Below, one piece after another: positions 35,870 to 62,164 of a DNA stretch of 64,000 bases. The number at the start of each line of letters is the position of its first letter. The first letter of the stretch is position 1. Source of the DNA: Hexactinellida sp. DTS-2022. Its lineage: Eukaryota; Porifera; Hexactinellida. A program made the translations under genes and the position numbers. The DNA lies in assembly GCA_028753945.1 (NCBI GenBank), contig JAPNXP010000012.1, positions 682,001 to 746,000 of the forward strand, written 5' to 3'. The notes under the pieces are model-generated. The model did not search any database. It was not told the origin of the DNA and was given only the letters and a program-made list of their open reading frames with translations.

Positions 35870-36958
<1,089 letters not shown>

Positions 36959-38207: not shown

Positions 38208-39574
<1,367 letters not shown>

Positions 39575-42630: not shown

Positions 42631-43203
<573 letters not shown>

Positions 43204-51352: not shown

Positions 51353-51669
51353 AGCGAATATATCCAAATCGCAGCGCTAGGTGATCCATCGGGACGAGAA
51401 CAAAGGAGTCGTTACATTATTATTCATTCCACCCTAAGGGAGAAAAATCTAAAATTACAGCTGTACAGACAGCATATTCTTGTGGAGGCACTATTAGTCG
51501 TTAAACCACCAAATACGTATAGTGCCTCCACCAGAATATGCTGTCTGTACAGCTGTAATTTTAGATTTTTCTCCCTTAGGGTGGAATGAATATAAATGTA
51601 ACGACTCCTTTGTTCTCGTCCGCTTCCCGATGGATCACTTAGCCGCTACGCATTTTGATATATTCGCTC
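51353..51669. mobile_element. Long perfect hairpin MITE (317 bp)
   Basis: Arms of about 140 bp are almost perfect complements: outer gcgaatatatcc and its inverted form, then ggtgatccatcggg, acaaaggagtcgttac, then inner gggagaaaaatctaaaatta and tacagctgtacagacagcat, closing on a loop of about 25 bases around ttaaaccaccaaat. Related worn copies are at 44755-44870 and 45111-45180. It lies just downstream of the GST at 51905. Confidence 0.85.
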
Positions 51670-51904: not shown

Positions 51905-52522
51905 CTATTTACGAATTTTGTGGGTTTTTTCCTTCCATTCCTTGATTTTCTCCATTCCATCAATGTTGGAGGCAATGGCAGCTAACTTCGGACAATCTTT
52001 GAGAACATCATTCAAATCACCATAACTAAAAAAATCAACAATGTTACAAATTGCGAAATCAGCCCAAGAGATCTTGTTCCCACTCAGAAAGTGTTTGTCA
52101 CTTTTAACTTGATTCTCAAGAAAAGCAAGTTTCCCTGGCATATCCTTAAGGAATTGTTGCTTGCATTCCTCTCTCTTATCTTCTGGTCCAAAAACTACAC
52201 CATAGATTTTACTCCCTATATCAAAAGTAACATCGACATAGGATTCAAGCTGAGCATTCTCCATGGGGCTACTTCCTGCCAACCCATTCTTCTCTGCTAT
52301 GTAGCGACCTATAGCAATACTTCCTCCTAGCTTAACTCCTCCCTCCTCGTAGAAGGGAGCCATTCCCAGCGGGGCTTGAGCTTTGTATGTGCTTACCCAT
52401 TCGTCACGAGTGAACCTGACGTCATCGAATTCAATACACAGATAAACAAACATAAGTCGAGCAATCTCTACCCGCCCGGATATATCAAAGTAGTATAATT
52501 TAGGCTTATCAGCAGCTGCCAT
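51905..52522 (-). CDS. Sigma-like glutathione S-transferase (GST gene 2)
   Basis: 205 residues, intronless. N-domain KLYYFDISGRVEIARLMF with the catalytic-type tyrosine; glutathione site [18 protein letters not shown]; helical domain with [16 protein letters not shown]-terminus MEKIKEWKEKTHKIRK. The usual Gln before the conserved Ser of the site is Gly, as in all close copies here. Arg of the GRAE turn is kept, Ala is Val. It is nearly identical to GST gene 3, because both sit in a tandem duplication. A hammerhead-like sequence lies 295-354 bp upstream of its start on the same strand. Confidence 0.93.
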   Translation of the reverse strand: MAAADKPKLYYFDISGRVEIARLMFVYLCIEFDDVRFTRDEWVSTYKAQAPLGMAPFYEEGGVKLGGSIAIGRYIAEKNGLAGSSPMENAQLESYVDVTFDIGSKIYGVVFGPEDKREECKQQFLKDMPGKLAFLENQVKSDKHFLSGNKISWADFAICNIVDFFSYGDLNDVLKDCPKLAAIASNIDGMEKIKEWKEKTHKIRK

Positions 52523-52816
52523 TGGTATCTAAGATCTCAAACTATTTCTAAAATTAGTATTTATTTAGATTACATATGGCAGACCTGACAGTGATTACAG
52601 GATAATGATTAAGATGGTTATAATCGATATATTCATATATATTGCATATTGTCAGATCAATTTTAAGTTTATGAATTGGTAACTAATAACTATGTCTTTC
52701 TAATTTAGAAACTGTAATAATAATTCAATTATTAAACTTCTGTCGTGAACCTTTGGGACCTCATCAAGTTTCCACAGTCCTTGACTGCGTACGGTCCAAG
52801 AGGTGTCGCCACCAAT

Positions 52817-52876
52817 AAAGGGTTTCGGCCCTCCATAGGCCTCATCAGGAGGACGGTCCAGTCCTCTACCCTCGGT
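52817..52876 (-). ncRNA. Hammerhead ribozyme-like sequence, copy 1 (slightly decayed)
   Basis: Read on the minus strand: stem III 5' strand GAGGGT, cleavage triplet GTA (cut expected between 52867 and 52866), stem I GAGGAC/GTCCTC with loop TGGACC, core CTGATGA (52848-52842), stem II GGCC/GGCC with loop TATGGAG, core GAAA (52826-52823), stem III 3' strand ACCCTT. All invariant core bases are present. The outer pairs of stem III are mismatched compared with copy 2, leaving six pairs including one G-T. Stem III is the open stem, that is type III topology. It lies upstream of GST gene 2 in the same orientation. Confidence 0.8.
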
Positions 52877-53743
52877 ACGTCTTCCTGCGACCGTTGTGCC
52901 CGCCTACTGCCTCCGCTTGCATCCTACGACGCACATATGCCTGCCTCTCTAGTACTCAGTAGCAGGGAATTATCCAGGAGCGCGAGACGCTCCTTTTGGA
53001 GTATGATTCTCGAAACAAAATTAATTAAGAGCGCGAATATTGGAATCTTCTCCTATACCGTAACATTAATTTGTGATTTAGGCGTATGAAAATTTGATCA
53101 GACCAGGATTAGGGCGTATTTACAAATGACTGTATAATACACGCACTGTATTACCGCTCTATGCAGCGCATATACCTCCTGGGATGATGTATGTCTAACT
53201 CCATCACACTGCGATTAGATTATGTACATTAATATGCAGGGAGAAGCGGTTAACAGGGAAAAATTGAGATATACTACAGATAAAGGACCTTCAGTTAAGT
53301 TTTTACCTATTTTCGCGTTTAGTACCAAAGATAAAATCGAATTGTTCAATAGTATTCGGTTTGACAAAATAATATTTGCCATACGTAGTATAGTAGATAT
53401 TCGATTGCTTACTGAATATCATATTCGGTAGATCAAATCTCTTTAATTATTGGTAATATATAGGGATTCATCCAGGCGTGCGAGAACTTGTCTAGGCGCG
53501 CGAAAATCGAGAAATGCTCCCATAGACGTAATACAAATTGAGTATTTTAGGCGCGTGTGAGCGAACTCAAACTTAAACTAGGCGCGCAGAAATTTTTGCT
53601 TGGATGAAAGCCATATTGACGGTTTAGACTTGTTCTACTATGCGTTATTTATTCATAACGATTTCTACATATTCAGAAAACTATAATATCAGCGTATGGT
53701 AATCTAAAGCCTACGTATTTGTTTATCTATCTGGTCAACCGAA

Positions 53744-54228: not shown

Positions 54229-54846
54229 CTATTTAAGATTCTTGTGGGTCTTTGCCTTCCATTCCTTGATTTTCTCCATTTCATCAATGTTGGAGCTAAT
54301 GGCAGCTAATTTCGGACAATCTTTGAGAACATCATTCAAATCACCATAACTAAAAAAATCAACAATGTTCCAAATTGAGAAATCAGCCCAAGAGATCTTG
54401 TTCCCATCCAGAAAGTGTTTGTCACTTTTAACTTGTTTCTCAAGAAAAGCAAGTTTCCCTGGCATATCCTTAAAGAATTGTTGCTTGCATTCCTCTCTCT
54501 TATCCTCTGGTCCAAAAACTACACCATAGATTTTCCTCCCTATATCAAAAGTAACATCGACATAGGACTCAAGCTGAGCATTCTCCATGGGGCTACTTCC
54601 TGCCAACCCATTCTTCTCTGCTATGTAGCGACAGATAGCAATACTTCCTCCTAGCTTAACTCCTCCCTCCTCGTAGAAGGGAGCCATTCCCAGCGGGGCT
54701 TGAGCTTTGTATGTGCTCATCCATTCTTCATGGGTGAACCTGATGTCATCGAATTCCTTGCCCAGATAAACAAACATAAGTCGAGCAATCTCTGCCCGCC
54801 CGGATATATCAAAGTAGTATAATTTAGGCTTATCAGCAACTGCCAT
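54229..54846 (-). CDS. Sigma-like glutathione S-transferase (GST gene 3)
   Basis: 205 residues, intronless. KLYYFDISGRAEIARLMFVY keeps the standard GRAE turn. Glutathione site [18 protein letters not shown]. Helical domain with ISWADFSIWNIVDFF. C-terminus MEKIKEWKAKTHKNLK. The helix residue Ser of the HFLSGNK stretch is Asp here (HFLDGNK). It differs from GST gene 2 at only a few percent of positions. A hammerhead-like sequence with complete pairing lies 275-336 bp upstream, same strand. Detoxification of lipid peroxides or xenobiotics in the cytosol is the likely role, from the family. Confidence 0.93.
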   Translation of the reverse strand: MAVADKPKLYYFDISGRAEIARLMFVYLGKEFDDIRFTHEEWMSTYKAQAPLGMAPFYEEGGVKLGGSIAICRYIAEKNGLAGSSPMENAQLESYVDVTFDIGRKIYGVVFGPEDKREECKQQFFKDMPGKLAFLEKQVKSDKHFLDGNKISWADFSIWNIVDFFSYGDLNDVLKDCPKLAAISSNIDEMEKIKEWKAKTHKNLK

Positions 54847-55120
54847 TGATTTCTAAGATCTCAAACTATTTCTAAAATTAGTATTTAGATTACATATGGC
54901 AGACCTGACAGTGATTACAGGATAATGATTAAGATGGTTATAATCGATATATTTATATATATTGCCAGATCAATTTTAAGTTTATGAATTGGTAACTATG
55001 TATTTCTAATTTAGAAACTGTAATAATAATTCAATTATTAAACTTCTGTTGTGAACCTTTGGGACCTCATCAAGTTTCCACAGTCCTTGACTGCGTACGG
55101 TCCAAGAGGTGTCGCCACCA

Positions 55121-55182
55121 ATCAAGGGTTTCGGCCCTCCATAGGCCTCATCAGGAGGACGGTCCAGTCCTCTACCCTCGAT
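55121..55182 (-). ncRNA. Hammerhead ribozyme, copy 2 (all stems complete)
   Basis: Read on the minus strand: stem III 5' strand ATCGAGGGT, then A as the nucleotide 5' of the cut (expected between 55173 and 55172), stem I GAGGAC with loop TGGACC and GTCCTC, core CTGATGA (55154-55148), stem II GGCC, loop TATGGAG, GGCC, core GAAA (55132-55129), stem III 3' strand ACCCTTGAT. Stem III pairs over nine positions with a single G-T wobble; stem I has six and stem II four Watson-Crick pairs. The cleavage triplet is GTA, a permitted NUH. Hammerheads are known in non-autonomous retroelements and as isolated genomic motifs. The surrounding conserved block (about 55040-55290) may be part of such an element. 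Confidence 0.88.
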
Positions 55183-55584
55183 ACGCTCACTGCGACCGTT
55201 GTGCCCGCCTACTGCCTCCGCTTGCATCCTACGACGCACATATGCCTGCCTCTCTAATACTCTGTTACCTGGGAATTATCCAGGAGCGCGAGACGCTCCT
55301 TTTGGAGTATGATTTTAGGAACTAAATTAATTAGGAGCGTGAATATTGGAATCTTCTCCTATACCGTAACATTAATTTGTGATTTAGGCGTATGAAAACT
55401 TGATCAGACCAGGATTAGGAGCGTATTTACAAATGACTGTATAATACACGCACTGTAGTACCGCTCTATGCAGCGCATATACCTCCTGGGATGATGTATG
55501 TCTAACTCCATCACACTGCGATTAGATTATGTACATTAATATGCAGGGAGAAGCGGTTAACAGGGAAAAATTGGGAGTATACGG

Positions 55585-55970
55585 TATATCTGGCAGACAG
55601 ACTTGAGGGTTGTAAATAAATAATTTTTTATTTCTCAAATCAAATCAAATCAAATATTTGAAATTTCAAATAATTTCAAATCAAATCAAATCAAATATTT
55701 GAAATATTTGAAACTTTCAAATCATTTCCGAATCACTGTCAAAAGGTATATAAATTTTGAAAATGATCCTATATATTTGAAATTGAATTGAAAATGACGT
55801 GAAATTAAATTAAAGCGATTTGGAAACGGTTTGAAAATGATTTAAAGAATATGATATGAAAATGATTTGAAAATGATTTGAAATAATTTCATTTCAAATC
55901 AAATCATTCGAGAACTAAAATTATCTTAAATCAAATATTTGAAATATTTGATTTGATTTACAACACTGCC
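55585..55970. mobile_element. AAATCAAAT-rich MITE-like insertion
   Basis: Present in unit B and absent at the matching place in unit A. Ends gggttgtaaataaat and the complement of gatttacaacactg are roughly inverted. The interior is built of aaatcaaat, atttgaaat and gatttgaa words. The target duplication is not clear. It resembles in style the element at 22432-22700. Confidence 0.6.
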
Positions 55971-56892
55971 ACAGAGAAAGGACATTTAGTTAAGTTTTGA
56001 CCGATTTTCGCGTCTAGTACCAAAGATGAAATCGAATTGTTCAATATTCGATTGCTTACTGAATATCATATTCGGTAGATCAAATCTCTTTAATTATTGG
56101 TAATATACAGGGATTCATCCAGGCGTGCGAGAACTTGTCTAGGCGCGCGAATATCGAGAAATGCTCCCATAAGACGTAATACAAATTGAGTATTTTAGGC
56201 GTGTGAGCGAACTCAAACTTAATCTTGGCGCGCAGAAATTTTTGCCTTGATGAAAGCCTGGTAATAAAATATTGACGGTTTAGACTTGTTCTATTATGCG
56301 TTATTTATTCATAACGATTTCTACATATTCAGAAAACTATAATCTCAGCGTATGGTATTCTAAAGCCTACGTATTTGTTTATCTATCTGGTCAACCGAAT
56401 AATGCTACAGTAAAACTACAGTAAAACGGTTAATACGATATTCCGGTTAATAGAACACTATTTCAGTCCCCTTCAAAGCCTTTTCAAAACAAGTAATATT
56501 GGTTAATACGAATTCCGGATAAGGTGACCACATATTACGGTACCCTGGTGTTCGTACTAACGAGGTCCTAATTTATTTAATTACGGTTAAATCGGTATTA
56601 GTTGAAACGGTTTAAACCTAGTTGTTACAATTTACTTGATTTCTGATTATTGTAAGAGCACTCTCCAGGTGGACAATCAAATTGTTAAGAGCATATTTCA
56701 TGCCATGAAGCGTTCTACTTATTGGTACAAATAATGTGTGATAGTCACTGATATATATATTCGTTGAATCTTCTAAATTACCAAAAAACAGTAATACTCT
56801 ATAAATTGAAGTTCTTTTTGAAATTACAGACGAAAAACTGATACTATACTATAGACTAAATAGCAAACTAAGAAAATATATTTTAACCATGT

Positions 56893-57508
56893 CTATTTAA
56901 GATTCTTGTGGGTCTTTGCCTTCCATTCCTTGATTTTCTCCATTTCATCAATGTTGGAGCTAATGGCTGCTAATTTCGGACAATCTTTGAAACAACATTC
57001 AAACCAGCAAAACTCAAATAAGAAAAAACGTTACTAATTGTGAAATCAGCCCAAGAGATCTTGTCTCCACTCATAATGTGTTTGTCACTTTTAACTTGTT
57101 TCTCAATAAAAGCAAGTTTCCCTGGCACATCCTTAAGGAATTGTTGCTTGTATTCCTCTCTCTTATCCTCTGGTCCAAATATTACACCATATACTTTATT
57201 CGCTATATCTAACAAGGCATCGACATAGGACTCAAGCTGAGCATTCTCCATGGGGCTACTTCCTGCCAACCCATTTTTCTCTGCTATGTAGCGACAGATA
57301 GCAACACTTCCTCCTAGCTTAACTCCTCCCTCCTCGAGGAAGGGAGCCATTCCAGCGGGGCTTGAGCTTTGTATGTGCTTACCCATCCGTCACGAGTGAA
57401 CCTGACGTCATCGAATTCAATACCCAGATAAAACAAAAGAAGTCGAATAATCTCTGCCCGCCCAGGTACATCAAAGTAGTATAATTTAGGCTTATCAGCA
57501 GTTGCCAT
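56893..57508 (-). pseudogene. Frameshifted sigma-like GST (GST gene 4)
   Basis: A complete-length copy related to GST genes 2 and 3: [20 protein letters not shown] at the start, [20 protein letters not shown] in the middle, and the standard tail DNA (cttccattccttgattttct) at the end. A one-base loss after KAQAPL shifts the frame, and small length changes near the start of the last helix shift it again, so no full product can be made. The part after the first shift reads normally ([20 protein letters not shown]). It is the third member of the tandem series but has no hammerhead in its 5' flank. A sequencing error for the single-base shift cannot be excluded. Confidence 0.85.
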
Positions 57509-57924
57509 TGATTCCTAAATTTCTAAATAATTAATTGTAAACTTTCTTTCAACAGTCATATATTAGTTTGATTTTATGCATACTACTCAAGTTAGATAGC
57601 TGGCACTATATTAGACACTTACCAAATAATCAGATTAATAAGATTAATTTGGTCGGGGTAAGATTATAACGCCTATATTTGCCATGTGACTAGAAGAAAT
57701 GAGTACTAGTTGTCCAAAATACTAAATTAATTAAAATGAAATACGTAATATTTGGAGGATAATCAAGATCATATCTTACCTGTATTTCTCAGCGAAATAG
57801 AACATTACAAATATATTTACACTACAGTTTAACGAATCCACTAATCGTGTTAATTCTCAGATACGCCATCAAGATAATGGCAGCTGTTCCACAATTATGC
57901 GAAGGGAAATAGAATCTGCTTTAC

Positions 57925-58080
57925 CAGGGTTTTTTTTAAGGTTGAGACCTTGGTGCAACTCAGCTCGGCCATGGTGTAACTCAACACTGCAGTGGCCGCG
58001 GCCGACCCATAATCGTGGTGTAACTCCAAAAAATATTGGTGCAAAATTTACACCAAGATCGGCCTTAAAAAAAAACCCTG
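57925..58080. mobile_element. hAT-like MITE, family CAGGGTTTTTTTAAGG, copy 2
   Basis: 156 bp, opposite orientation to the copy at 21919. Flanked by a perfect 8-bp duplication tgctttac (57917-57924 and 58081-58088). Shares aaggttgagaccttggtg, gagttacacca-type and gtaaattttgcaccaa-type blocks with copy 1. Confidence 0.92.
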
Positions 58081-58440
58081 TGCTTTACAAAATTTCTCTG
58101 TTAATTACGGTACCAGTATTTGAGATGAATGAACTGATACCAAAAAATATTAATTCGTTATCTCTGATGAAGGCATTGAGGGTATTTATGTATATTATAT
58201 TTAGTAATTTTCACTGAATTTATGTAATCAGCTTCATTTCTATCCTGATTAAGAAGAACAAACTTGTCTCTGAATATAAAGGCCATTTCAGTTGATCCAT
58301 TAGGCCTCCTTTCATTATACGATGAAGCAACCTACTTTACCGGTGTTATAAAAATCCCATAAATATTGCCCAGACACTAGTACGAATGGGTCACTGAGCT
58401 GTTAGTAGAACAGCTGACTAGTAAACTGGAAGAGAAGTTC

Positions 58441-58851
58441 CTACTCTGTAGCTATTGCAGCGGATTGGCGAGAGATGCGTGTGTCCTGGAAAAATAAGGG
58501 AAACATGAACTGAGATGCTTTGTATGCATTCTTGAGGGCGTAACCTGGCAACAAGCTCTGTTGAGAAGAGAAGCGATCAACGGGAAACTTGTCAGTTATG
58601 AGTGAATTGAAATCCCAGTTACGAGCAAACAACAGAGTAAAGTTTTTAGAAAAGTTAAGTTTAGATAAGGAGCTTATTTCGGTCGGTGAAAACAAACTGT
58701 TTCCACACTTGTATCTACTAGCAAATTGGAATGCAAGATTAATGATACCAAACATAATATAGATAAGAAAGAGGATACTCTGTAGACTCCCATCTAACCT
58801 ACTGTACACTAACCTATCTATTTGTTCGGAGTCTACCGCAAATGCACTCAT
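58441..58851 (-). CDS. Small single-pass membrane protein, family not identified
   Basis: 136 residues from MSAFAVDSEQIDRLVYSRLD. One hydrophobic helix is clear at about 25-43 (ILFLIYIMFGIINLAF). The rest is polar, with a Phe-rich middle (LFARNWDFNSLI) and a C-terminus ending RISRQSAAIATE. I recognise no family. A short N-terminal arm followed by one helix would fit a type II or type III small membrane protein. It is intact and has a plausible start, but without a homologue it could be one exon of a larger gene. Confidence 0.4.
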   Translation of the reverse strand: MSAFAVDSEQIDRLVYSRLDGSLQSILFLIYIMFGIINLAFQFASRYKCGNSLFSPTEISSLSKLNFSKNFTLLFARNWDFNSLITDKFPVDRFSSQQSLLPGYALKNAYKASQFMFPLFFQDTRISRQSAAIATE

Positions 58852-59109
58852 GATATATGATAGAATGTTTGTGAGAATAACTAAATTTATGTAATGTAGG
58901 TCTACAGGGCTCAGGCTTGGACCGGGTCACCGGGTCACAATATTCGCTAAAACTCCGGATCACTAACGGGTCCGGCTTGGACCGAGTCACCGGATTACCG
59001 GGTCAACCGGGTCACTTAATTTTGATTTTACCCGATTCCTCACAGTAATGCTAATTAAATTTTATTGGTTTGTAGAATTATAACTTAGAAAGTTTCATCT
59101 AATATAGTA

Positions 59110-60039
59110 TAGTTAGGGAATTTTAACTCAAACCTTGAAAAAATTGTTACCAAACAATTTCTACACTAGAGTCTTCTTCTGGACCCAAATAAACTTAGAA
59201 AAAAAGTTGCAAGCCCAAACCCGTGAGAAAAATTATTCGAGATTTTTGAGATTAACTGTAAATCTCGAATAATTTTATAAAATCACGTTTTAGAGCAGGG
59301 GTTCTCAACCGGGGGGGAATTTGGAGGATTTTGGGGGGAAATTTTTTAACAATTTGGTCATACCTTATAATATCTCTACAAAGTAAAATTACATAAATAC
59401 ATACAAAGGTGACCAAAATATACAAGTAACCTATTTACTATTCAACACGATAAGTTTACTACTGATTCTTATTCATATTCTCTTTTGTTTGGAATGAAAT
59501 GAATAATATAATACAATTTACAGTTAACAATTATGGGGGGGGGGGAAATGTCTAGAATTTCGAAAGGGGGGTAACATGATTGTTTCGGTTAAGAACCCCT
59601 GTTTTAGAGTGTCGGTATGTGTATAATTTTTCTCAGGTAGCTGAATGGAGTCGAATGAGGGGTCACTTGATTATGTGGGAACACAATTTGATAATGGAAT
59701 TTTTACACATTCCTAAGACATTCCAGCATTGCTATGGAAAAATTCTTCCAAATATGGACATGTGATATATCAAATTGCTGGAAATTTAACGCAGAGTACC
59801 AATATGGTGATAATAAGTTGATTGGAGCTGATTTGAGAAAGTTAGCTCCAGAAATGTCGGCGATTTACTATGGAAAATCAGAAACTGCAACCCGTGTAAA
59901 AAATTTTCCTCACGGGTTTGGGCTTGCAACTTTTTTTCTATGTTTATTTTGGTCCAGAAGAAGACTCTAGTGTAGAAATTGTTTGGTAACAATTTTTTTC
60001 AAGGTTGACCTATAATTTGAGGTAAAATTCCCTAACTAT
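59110..60039. mobile_element. Long inverted-repeat element (middle level of the nest)
   Basis: Ends TAGTTAGGGAATTTTA and the complement of taaaattccctaacta, flanked by a 5-bp duplication tagta (59105-59109 and 60040-60044). Arms share caaacaatttctacactaga, gtcttcttctggaccca-type and gcaagcccaaacccgtg-type blocks in inverted order. Its core (gaggggtcacttgatta, ttccaaatatgg, catgtgatatatcaaatt) matches the core of the element at 34464-35119 although the termini differ. It is itself interrupted by the element at 59296-59601. Confidence 0.8.
59296..59601. mobile_element. hAT MITE CAGGGGTTCTCAACC (innermost level of the nest)
   Basis: 306 bp with ends CAGGGGTTCTCAACCGG and its inverted form ggttaagaacccctg. 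Perfect 8-bp duplication ttttagag (59288-59295 and 59602-59609). G-runs lie just inside both ends. The terminal sequence is a classic hAT end. It is the youngest insertion of the three. Confidence 0.93.
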
Positions 60040-60560
60040 AGTAAGTCGTTTAATATTTATGAGACATAGTATACTTCAATTGAAATTTCTTTGGTATCGC
60101 TGGTCACTGTATACTTACTTACCGGGTCAGCCGGGTCACCCGGTCTGAGCTTATCGGGTCACCGGGTCATGAGATCTTGACCCGGTCCAAGCCTGATAGG
60201 GCTGTCAATGAGTTTACTAATATTGTGAAAGTTCAGTTGCTCGGTCAGATACTCCAATCTCAATCAGGGGGATCATTCCAGAAATATAGTTAACCATAGC
60301 CTACGAGTTAACCTTTTGTGAATTGAAGACCAAAACTGCTGCTAATATCAAATTTGGTATGAGGGACCAATTACAAACTCAAAATAAATCTGAGAGCTCA
60401 AATTATTTATCCCATTTTGTAGTGTTGAGTAATTACGAAAAATAAAAATGCAAATGTACCAAATATAAAATTATTTTTGACACAACTATTATTTCGTTAT
60501 ATTTCAGATGGAATTCCGGAGTTAATAAGTTTAGTAAGAGGCACACACAAAAGCACATTA

Positions 60561-60731
60561 CAGTGAATTCCAGTTACAATGTAGTCGGATATAGCAAAAT
60601 AATCGCTTATAACGAAGAGATTTTCACCCAGAGCACTAAATGCATTAATTATTATCTGCTTATAACGAATATTCGGATATAACGAAGGAATTTACAAGTC
60701 CTGAGCACTTCATTATAACGAGAATTTACTG
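60561..60731. mobile_element. TA-flanked MITE, family CAGTGAACTCTCGTTATAACG, copy 2
   Basis: 171 bp. TA|CAGTGAATTCCAGTTACAA at the left, cattataacgagaatttactg|TA-type end at the right. Interior agcactaaatgcattaa and tattcggatataacgaa match copy 1 at 46117. Tc1/pogo-type by ends and TA target. Confidence 0.75.
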
Positions 60732-61184
60732 TATATTTGGACAGCCGACCTAAATTAAAATTATGGATAATTATATAACTATTAATTAATAAATAATACG
60801 TATAAGTAGTACTATATACAGTAATATACTTAGTGGTCAATTTTAGCTGTCCACTCAGTTACAAATGTTACTAGAATAGGGGATGATTATTAGGTACAAG
60901 TATCTTGCAGTCAGTGGTGTAGTACTAATTTCAGAAGTGGGGGAGCGGTAGTAATTATTTTTGTATTTTGTTCCTAAATCAATCAAGATATAAATAATCA
61001 AATTTACAATTTTTTACATTTAATAATTGGCGATATATAATTAATATAATGTCCCCAAACATTATAAATAATATTGGTATGAAAGAGAACTTACCATTGT
61101 TTCGAGGTTCTAAATTGGATCATGGATACATGTATCTTATGAAATACTTGGGGTTACTAATTAGTTATTAATTATAAGGGAATC

Positions 61185-61349
61185 CTTATATAGAGCTGAG
61201 CTTTGTAGAGTTCAGATTTTTTCCCATACTAAAAGCCCAGGCTTACTTTCTAAAGGTCAATTTCAAACTCTGGAAAAAAACTGACCTTTCTCAGTGCATG
61301 AATACACATAGTGAAAAACTGAACTCTACAAAGCTCAGCTCTATATAAG
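61185..61349. mobile_element. MITE with 31-bp perfect terminal inverted repeats
   Basis: Left arm 61185-61215 (cttatatagagctgagcttt onward) and right arm 61319-61349 are exact complements over 31 bp. A second, smaller inverted pair (aaaggtca / tgaccttt) lies inside. Total 165 bp, no frame. It lies in the 3' flank of GST gene 5. Perfect arms suggest recent origin. Confidence 0.8.
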
Positions 61350-61549
61350 TAATTTATAATTATAATGTGTCAGTTTGGATTATGTGGAAATACCAGTTAT
61401 TTATATTTTTTATTACATACAACTAAATTGGTATTTGAGAGGTATCTAATAATATCCAAGCAATACACAGCTAATCTAATCAATACGTAATCTACGAACT
61501 AATGTAGCAAATATAGAAAATTCTAATAAAACTAGTTCAATGATAAATT

Positions 61550-62164
61550 CTACAATTTTGGGTAAGTCTTGATCCTATACTCCTTAATCTTTTCCATCTC
61601 GCTAATGTTTGTGGCTACTGCAACTAACTTGGGAAAATCATTGAAGACAGCATCTAATCCAAAATGACACAATGAATTGTGTAATGTGCTCAAACCCAAA
61701 TCAGCCCAAGTGACTCTCTTCTCAGCCAGGAAATTCTTTTCGCACTTAACTTGTTTCTCAAGAAAGGCAAGTTTCCCTGGTACGTTTTTTAAAAAATCCT
61801 GTTTGCAGGTTTCCCGCTGATCCTCAGGTCCCATTGCAATCCCATAGATTTTACTCCCTATATCGAATATAGCATCGACATAGGACTCAAGCTGAGCATT
61901 CTCCATGGGGCTACTTCCTGCCAACCCATACTTCTCTGCTAAGTAACGACTGATAGCAATACTTCCTCCTAGCTTAACTCCTCCCTCCTCGTAGAAGGGA
62001 GCCATTCCCAGCGGGGCTTGAGCTTTGTATGTGCTCATCCATTCTTCACGAGTGAACCTAACGTCATCGAATTCCTTGCCAGCGTAGGCAAGCAGAAGTC
62101 GACCAATCTCTGCCCGCCCAGGTGCATCGAAGTAATAGATTTTACATTTAGGTGCAGCTGCCAT
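61550..62164 (-). CDS. Sigma-like glutathione S-transferase (GST gene 5)
   Basis: 204 residues, intronless. CKIYYFDAPGRAEIGRLLLA keeps the catalytic-type tyrosine and GRAE. Glutathione site [18 protein letters not shown]. The helical domain is more diverged than in genes 2-4: VTWADLGLSTLHNSL and KCEKNFLAEKRVTW. C-terminus KIKEYRIKTYPKL. Middle stretch [20 protein letters not shown] is shared with the other copies at near DNA identity, while the C-terminal half differs, suggesting partial gene conversion between paralogues. Cytosolic glutathione transfer or peroxidase activity is the family expectation. Confidence 0.92.
   Translation of the reverse strand: MAAAPKCKIYYFDAPGRAEIGRLLLAYAGKEFDDVRFTREEWMSTYKAQAPLGMAPFYEEGGVKLGGSIAISRYLAEKYGLAGSSPMENAQLESYVDAIFDIGSKIYGIAMGPEDQRETCKQDFLKNVPGKLAFLEKQVKCEKNFLAEKRVTWADLGLSTLHNSLCHFGLDAVFNDFPKLVAVATNISEMEKIKEYRIKTYPKL

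Follow-up and report, generated by a model that had tools for sequence, protein, structure and literature searches.

The stretch analysed here (the window, 64,000 nucleotides, C4:682001-746000) belongs to a genome of 112.4 Mb in 18 contigs, all of which was searched. Among the genes of the window, those for a GT18/MGAT5-like protein and for ELP3 have animal sequences as their best named matches, the former in the sponge Dysidea (33%), while the matches of the latter include sponges, a brachiopod, corals and a sea urchin at 82-84%; trees of ELP3 and MGAT5 gave no firm phylum placement. Proteins from related assemblies are 85-96% identical. Seven matches to the Ets domain, which is not known outside animals, were found in the genome. 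Together with the gene matches they show the host to be an animal, perhaps a sponge, to judge by the MGAT5 match. The ELP3 gene, the GT18/MGAT5-like gene and a frame of 1778 aa are long uninterrupted frames (4664-50731), and since conserved animal genes occur in this form, the genome may be poor in introns. One further open frame (35870-36952, 360 aa) reads by eye as a GST running into an ARF-like GTPase, possibly a gene fusion or a duplication artefact; two near-identical ARF-like genes adjoin it (38208-38750 and 42631-43176).

Further along in the window, a unit of roughly 2.3 kb is duplicated in tandem, each copy having a GST gene and a hammerhead ribozyme (HHR) inside a fragment of a long terminal repeat (LTR). 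The features are the following:

54229..54846, minus strand: sigma-like GST gene of 205 aa, downstream of the HHR and outside the element (Pfam GST_C_3 and GST_N; PDB GST matches)
51905..52522, minus strand: GST gene of the first duplicated unit, outside the element (open reading frame)
55047..55260, minus strand: remaining LTR portion of the window copy, from the 3' side of a family A LTR (genome matches; alignment with the complete copies L009, L010, L012 and L021)
52741..52955, minus strand: LTR fragment around the second HHR (97% match to the window LTR query, C4:734734-734955, and alignment)
55121..55182, minus strand: type III HHR (RF00008 match, minimum-free-energy fold, simulated windows)
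55182-55174 with 55129-55121, minus strand: stem III, nine pairs, one of them G-U
55172-55167 with 55160-55155, minus strand: stem I, six pairs, loop of 6 nt
55154-55148, minus strand: CTGATGA core
55147-55143 with 55137-55133, minus strand: stem II, five pairs if U-G is counted
55132-55129, minus strand: GAAA, whose A at 55129 closes stem III
between 55173 and 55172, minus strand: predicted self-cleavage site, after GTA (U16.1-H17 position in the fold)
52815..52876 (approximate), minus strand: second HHR, placed by the 2306-nt offset of repeat D5; core intact, CTGATGA starting at 52848

The first-pass annotation had described a complete hammerhead of type III topology on the minus strand, with its conserved core and three stems, and both the fold and the model search agree with it. 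Folded alone, the 68-nt strand has the exact hammerhead as its minimum-free-energy structure (-28.7 kcal/mol; z -3.04, one of 200 shuffles being equally good), the cleavage nucleotide being the A at 55173 of a GTA triplet on the minus strand; stem III is the open stem, which makes the ribozyme type III. The six pairs and six-base loop reported for stem I and the nine pairs with one G-U for stem III stand, whereas the four pairs given for stem II become five once U-G is counted, and the fold predicts the same site, 55172, for the 5'-OH end. RF00008 (Hammerhead_3), run on 54850-55700 with an E threshold of 10, has its sole match there (38.4 bits, E 1.3e-6), spanning model positions 1-54 of 54 and scoring below the gathering score of 48.5 bits; a scan of the whole window with Rfam at gathering scores gave no match.

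Chance had been judged a very unlikely source of such a structure, and the counts uphold this. Under the full type III definition (core, three stems and a U-H cleavage site), exactly two matches occur in the window, both on the minus strand with CTGATGA starting at 55154 and 52848, and none occurred in 3283 simulated 64-kb windows built from the dinucleotide transitions of the window; reversed-pattern controls also gave none, and a chance match was rejected. The loose core pattern alone is uninformative, as its four matches in the window compare with a mean of 1.49 expected and nine of 100 shuffles reach four. An open reading frame runs across the HHR; a coding origin of the stretch seems less likely, as the stems covary (detailed below), which speaks for an RNA instead.

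The ribozyme is one of many. The LTR sequence of the window (minus strand, 55040-55260) has at least 41 matches in the genome (40 of 74 first-look candidates scored), and the 376-nt unit of L012, a family A element, has at least 47 (40 of 71 candidates scored). RF00008 finds at least 68 matches, 64 of them above the gathering score (68 of 12319 candidates scored), and matches in none of 14 control genomes; RF00163, run for type I HHRs, gave no match in the genome among the 73 of 14702 candidates scored, but as this model was also silent in the controls, the result does not establish that type I copies are absent. Exact patterns picked up 38 family A ribozymes (17 + 21) and 236 from other families (116 + 120), the same patterns read backwards giving none; the genome holds at least 274 strict type III HHRs, a lower bound because damaged copies escape the patterns. 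Family B is the largest group of HHR-bearing LTRs found. A scan of viral contigs with one family B pattern gave no match.

In the better-kept copies, the HHR lies inside TG...CA LTRs, mostly of 230-360 nt. L012 is a two-LTR element of 677 nt (1861-2537) in which a 73-nt interior separates the LTRs 1861-2162 and 2236-2537, each of 302 nt, reading TGTCATG...CTTACA and containing the HHR; the target site duplication (TSD) CTAT stands on both sides, the primer-binding site (PBS) begins two bases behind the LTR, the interior ends in a purine-rich tract, the polypurine tract (PPT) GGGAAGAGTGA, and the unit has 59.2% G+C. Its length below 1000 bp, two LTRs, PBS, PPT and non-coding interior are those of a TRIM. 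The PBS, which in L010 reads TGGTGCATTGGCCGGGAA, is complementary to the tRNA-Gly(gcc) 3' end including CCA; the gene for this tRNA was taken from the one genome site that matches the pattern TTCRANTCCCGGCCAATGCA, as called by ARAGORN. Eight such PBS sites occur in 112 Mb (seven exact, one with one mismatch; reversed control, none), and each of the eight follows an LTR end of these elements at a distance of 1-2 nt; two belong to family A and six to family C, whose LTRs read TGTAGTATCGG...TACTACA. The adjoining LTR holds an intact CTGATGA...GAAA core in six of the eight, one of the others being rearranged and one damaged. A tRNA PBS behind the 5' LTR was found in families A and C only, and none was recognised in family B. 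L057, of another family, is a two-LTR copy with 385 nt from start to start, the TSD CTAC/CTAC and the tract AACAAGGGGGGTGA. The PPT junction reads GTGA|TG in L012, L049 and L057, and GGAG|TG in L070 (family C).

Several arrangements derive from this anatomy. L009 is a solo LTR (TSD AAAG/AAAG), and L021, a relative with the same 5' part as the window copy, looks by eye like another (AACT/AACT). L010 and L046 are palindromic insertions, an LTR followed by an inverted LTR, with the TSDs CAGG/CAGG and CGTA/CGTA, and L018 is a two-LTR copy with the non-identical flanks CTTA/CTTC. A compound family B insertion (L049:425-2608) holds five HHR-bearing LTRs in both orientations over nearly 2.2 kb, as an LTR-interior-LTR unit joined to inverted copies. 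In L012:1693-2702 the element is enclosed by two inverted repeats of 26 nt, 958 nt apart and beginning with TACAGTACACCCTCGCTAATCCG, which may recall the terminal repeats of pogo/Tigger-type elements. Near-identical family A LTRs (subfamily A2) occur in the 4-kb loci L023, L024, L027 and L028 inside a larger repeat that aligns over up to 3.5 kb at 95-99%, in which OTU-like and THAP-like frames were seen by eye; judging from these frames it is probably a DNA transposon with the ribozyme as passenger, and the subfamily was rejected as an autonomous partner, its LTR looking like a passenger of the larger repeat.

The TSDs were tested on 76 distinct HHR contexts, in 34 of which end patterns located both LTR ends. 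Identical 4-bp flanks were found in 12 of these 34, whereas 20000 permutations gave 0.70 on average and never more than 6; the end patterns behind this count were revised after the first output and the flanks had been viewed, so that the test was not blind, with all rows kept in both counts. The initial patterns, which also matched CATCTCA and misplaced many of the family B ends, gave five exact pairs in 34 (permutation mean 0.26, maximum 4). On our reading, 14 of the 34 cannot match, because they are inner ends of composites or have a misplaced start; among the remaining 20, 12 match, four are one base off (L030, L033, L034 and L052) and four are unmatched (L026, L029, L039 and L059). L053 and L054 may both go back to a single event. 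The exact 4-bp TSDs include those of L012, L010, L046 and L057.

At family level, these elements thus combine an HHR within the LTR, direct TG...CA LTRs, a non-coding interior, a PPT and a 4-bp TSD, the features of an LTR retrozyme, and the LTR-PBS-PPT-LTR-TSD anatomy is present in several families with solo-LTR and palindromic derivatives. Very probably, the window holds two duplicated and degraded solo LTRs of a non-autonomous element with a type III HHR, an LTR retrozyme of an animal. The TSD, LTR, PBS and PPT of L012, the eight of eight PBS sites, the TSDs at large and the covariation argue for this reading; against it stand the window copy, which lacks a 5' LTR end and a TSD and falls below the Rfam cut-off, the differing flanks of L018, the eight of 20 copies whose flanks are not identical, and family B, in which no tRNA PBS was recognised. 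Of the two alternatives in the first-pass annotation, an undescribed small retroelement or a co-opted ribozyme, the former fits better, the retroelement being a small non-coding one with LTRs.

In pairwise comparison, the HHRs of 19 family A LTRs are 95.9% identical on average, whereas the values are 80.6% for the LTR upstream (position 41 onwards) and 86.8% for the part downstream; four of these LTRs are near-identical copies carried along by another repeat. A total of 62 distinct HHRs were parsed, 45 of them with a cleavage triplet ending in C and 17 with one ending in A; seven further entries were left unparsed (one damaged site seen twice, four HHRs that are damaged or altered, and a core match due to chance). 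Paired positions change together in stem III (III-3: TA 29, GC 24, AT 3; III-4: GC 32, AT 17, TA 2), stem II (II-2: TA 45, GC 17; II-3: CG 55, TA 5; II-5: CG 32, TA 16) and stem I (I-5: GC 41, AT 17), a covariation that largely sets family A against the rest, related copies not being independent events; past its fifth position, stem III is mostly unpaired across families. The predicted 375-nt circle of L012 has -153.1 kcal/mol, 66% of its bases paired and a z of -3.38 against 60 shuffles, and the HHR fold is absent from the minimum-free-energy structure of the whole linear L012 LTR. At family level, the ribozyme is kept above the rest of the LTR, with covarying stems. It could nonetheless be supposed that these are TRIM-type elements whose mobility needs only LTR, PBS and PPT, the hammerhead being a bystander relic: the available part of Kojima 2024 (PMC10886601) reports TRIMs without ribozymes from animals, and ribozyme activity is here only predicted. 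We regard this as quite improbable, as the HHR is the best-kept part of the family A LTRs and compensatory changes keep it across families whose LTR sequences are otherwise unlike.

The copy in the window is a remnant. Its fragment, whose 3' end reads ...TTCACAACA at 55047, has 56.5% G+C compared with 39.1% for the whole window; its 5' part is replaced by other sequence at about 55256-55260, and in the alignment with complete copies neither a 5' LTR end nor a TSD could be determined. The replacement edge (55256-55420; CCTGGGAATTATCCAGG..GCGCG) resembles the sequence that truncates the LTR in L063, and perhaps another repeat was inserted into both LTRs. The HHR stands beside two GST genes because the unit is tandemly duplicated. 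Between the duplicates, the GST frames (51905-52522 and 54229-54846) share 586 of 618 bases, the HHR 57 of 58, the adjoining LTR parts 75 of 76 and 72 of 76, the stretch 55256-55420 152 of 165, and the stretch between LTR and GST 191 of 215; outer stem III is weaker in the second HHR copy (52815-52876). BLASTN of 54840-56600 against 57300-61600, upstream of a third GST copy, gave no match at E up to 1e-3. Beside the GST array lie inverted repeats (51392-51621 and 59138-59998) with arms of 103 nt (97% complementary) and 100 nt (96% complementary).

The position of the ribozyme in the 5' flank of a GST gene, as first noticed, is confirmed by the open reading frame 54229-54846 on the minus strand, whose ATG the HHR precedes by 275-336 nt in the same orientation. 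From this placement, and from the intact core in both duplicates, it might be argued that the ribozyme was co-opted into the GST 5' leaders, where by cutting transcripts it would set or condition expression, as the second alternative of the first-pass annotation implied. The comparison of the duplicates speaks otherwise: with 57 of 58 positions alike compared with 75 of 76 and 72 of 76, the HHR is no better kept than the flanking LTR, and there being no such preferential retention, co-option is unsupported. A single insertion followed by tandem duplication explains both copies, the window copy is an LTR fragment missing its 5' part, and the same LTRs stand at tens of unrelated places in the genome, so that we give co-option very little credence.

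Still less probable is that the HHR belongs to tandem repeats of another kind, be it a metazoan non-LTR retrozyme, a satellite, or an element of the Penelope-like or SINE-like sort. Some copies, tandem or palindromic, do have units of about 375-486 nt, a size range resembling that of the animal non-LTR retrozymes covered by the accessible part of PMC7229834. The HHR, however, is of type III, the elements have a PBS, a PPT, 4-bp TSDs and TG...CA ends, the tandem spacing equals LTR plus interior, and in families A and C such a reading is contradicted by PBS and TSDs alike. A tandem satellite was rejected, many copies being single dispersed LTRs and the tandem ones LTR-interior-LTR. A Penelope-like element or Terminon would be expected to have a minimal type I HHR in its terminal repeats and its own reverse transcriptase, whereas the HHR here is type III; TSD length and LTR anatomy speak against a SINE. 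The association with Penelope-like elements, SINE-like repeats or satellites initially suggested for this hammerhead finds no support, its place being within an LTR that belongs to a TRIM-like retroelement.

As an LTR retrozyme, the element is closest to plant examples in several respects. The parts of Cervera et al. 2016 (PMC4918200) available to us describe LTR retrozymes of plants whose LTRs, some 300-350 bp long, contain a type III HHR, and which have a PBS, a PPT, a 4-bp TSD, a non-coding and G+C-rich body and a PPT/LTR boundary like that of Ty3/gypsy, all as found here, and the 6-bp stem I with 6-nt loop of the family A HHR is that of typical plant type III HHRs (PMC7936874, in part). 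The differences lie in the animal host, in a PBS for tRNA-Gly(GCC) here and for tRNA-Met in plants, and in a unit of 375-385 nt (two copies) compared with the 600-1000 nt given in the same portions of PMC4918200; the very short interior (73 nt in L012), the palindromic insertions and a family B without tRNA PBS also set the present elements apart. Metazoan non-LTR retrozymes, in the sections at hand of Cervera and de la Pena 2020 (PMC7229834), share the animal host, the small non-coding HHR repeat, some tandem copies and a predicted highly paired circle, but have a type I HHR, no LTR, PBS or PPT and a G+C below 50%; for metazoan HHR repeats, the available text of PMC4918200 states that neither PBS nor PPT was detected, save a full tRNA in schistosome repeats. 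TRIMs, including the animal Helenus, are likewise non-coding, shorter than 1000 bp and provided with two LTRs, PBS and PPT, with 4-bp TSDs and an ascription to Gypsy in the case of Helenus, whose LTR holds a tRNA-like sequence and not a ribozyme (PMC10886601, as far as its accessible part goes). Type III HHRs in animals are also reported from delta-like agents, termites and flies; as given in the accessible part of PMC7936874, these differ in an extended stem I with internal loop and pseudoknot, and an LTR context goes unmentioned there. Insect type III HHRs are mentioned as work in preparation in the available passages of PMC7761336 and PMC7936874. The open-access literature as available, preprints and most subscription papers aside, yielded no LTR retrozyme in an animal.

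At least 150 Ty3/gypsy-type integrase zinc-binding domains are present in the genome (150 of 885 candidates scored). Four such regions were fetched, three with an LTR pair and one (L085) without; all three paired elements encode protease, RT, RNase H and integrase domains, in the gypsy order, within a single long frame, exact 4-bp TSDs flank two of them (GTTC and AACT; none in the third as delimited by BLAST), and a GTGA tract stands directly before the TG of the 3' LTR in all three, as in L012, L049 and L057. Given the likeness of PPT junction and LTR ends, Ty3/gypsy elements are candidate helpers, an argument of the kind made for plant retrozymes, whose gypsy mobilisation was also argued from PPT and LTR-end likeness (PMC4918200, available part). 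Against this stands the family C junction, which is GGAG|TG and not GTGA|TG. A tRNA-Gly PBS was found in none of the three gypsy elements, and a search for an autonomous element with this PBS yielded none among the eight PBS sites of the genome. TAAAT stands behind the gypsy LTRs and recalls the TAATA behind some family B LTRs (L032, L049 and L065).

In some family B elements a fold-back hairpin spans the edge of the LTR, its outer arm repeating the LTR end in reverse complement. A script detected it at five of 55 LTR 3' ends, solo LTRs being unable to show one, and those of L025 and L046 were recognised by eye; in some elements of the family the hairpin leads straight into an inverted LTR. 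Behind the family B LTR ends of L025, L032, L046, L049, L064 and L065, the sequence of the hairpins varies while the pairing is kept. Judging from this sequence pattern, the hairpin is a possible self-priming site. Self-priming from it would yield an LTR-hairpin-inverted-LTR product, and such a palindrome could also arise otherwise.

From the likeness to plant LTR retrozymes we infer that the element works as they do, with self-cleavage, circular RNA and mobilisation by Ty3/gypsy. In a transcript across both LTRs, cleavage by the two ribozymes would release a monomer of about 375 nt, whose ends would be a 5'-OH and a cyclic phosphate and which a host ligase could close into a circle. The circle might then be copied by the reverse transcriptase of the Ty3/gypsy elements of the genome, with tRNA-Gly as the presumed primer in families A and C, and the LTR-flanked cDNA would be inserted by the Ty3/gypsy integrase. 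Recombination between LTRs would leave solo LTRs, of which the window copy, probably immobile, would be a damaged example. A wider picture is possible, though on balance doubtful: an animal radiation of LTR retrozymes that supply circular RNA templates to Ty3/gypsy, as has been proposed for plants, and in which the family B hairpin would have replaced the tRNA primer and thereby yielded palindromes.

In the portions of the literature available, retrozymes are divided by kingdom, with LTR elements and type III HHRs in plants and non-LTR elements and (mostly) type I HHRs in animals. Hundreds of type III HHRs in LTR elements of an animal genome break this division. It thus becomes testable whether the LTR retrozymes of plants and animals are of independent origin or came about by transfer, and an animal system is at hand in which to ask whether RNA circles made by ribozymes template LTR retrotransposition. 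The finding also bears on the origin of viroid-like and delta-like agents with type III hammerheads.
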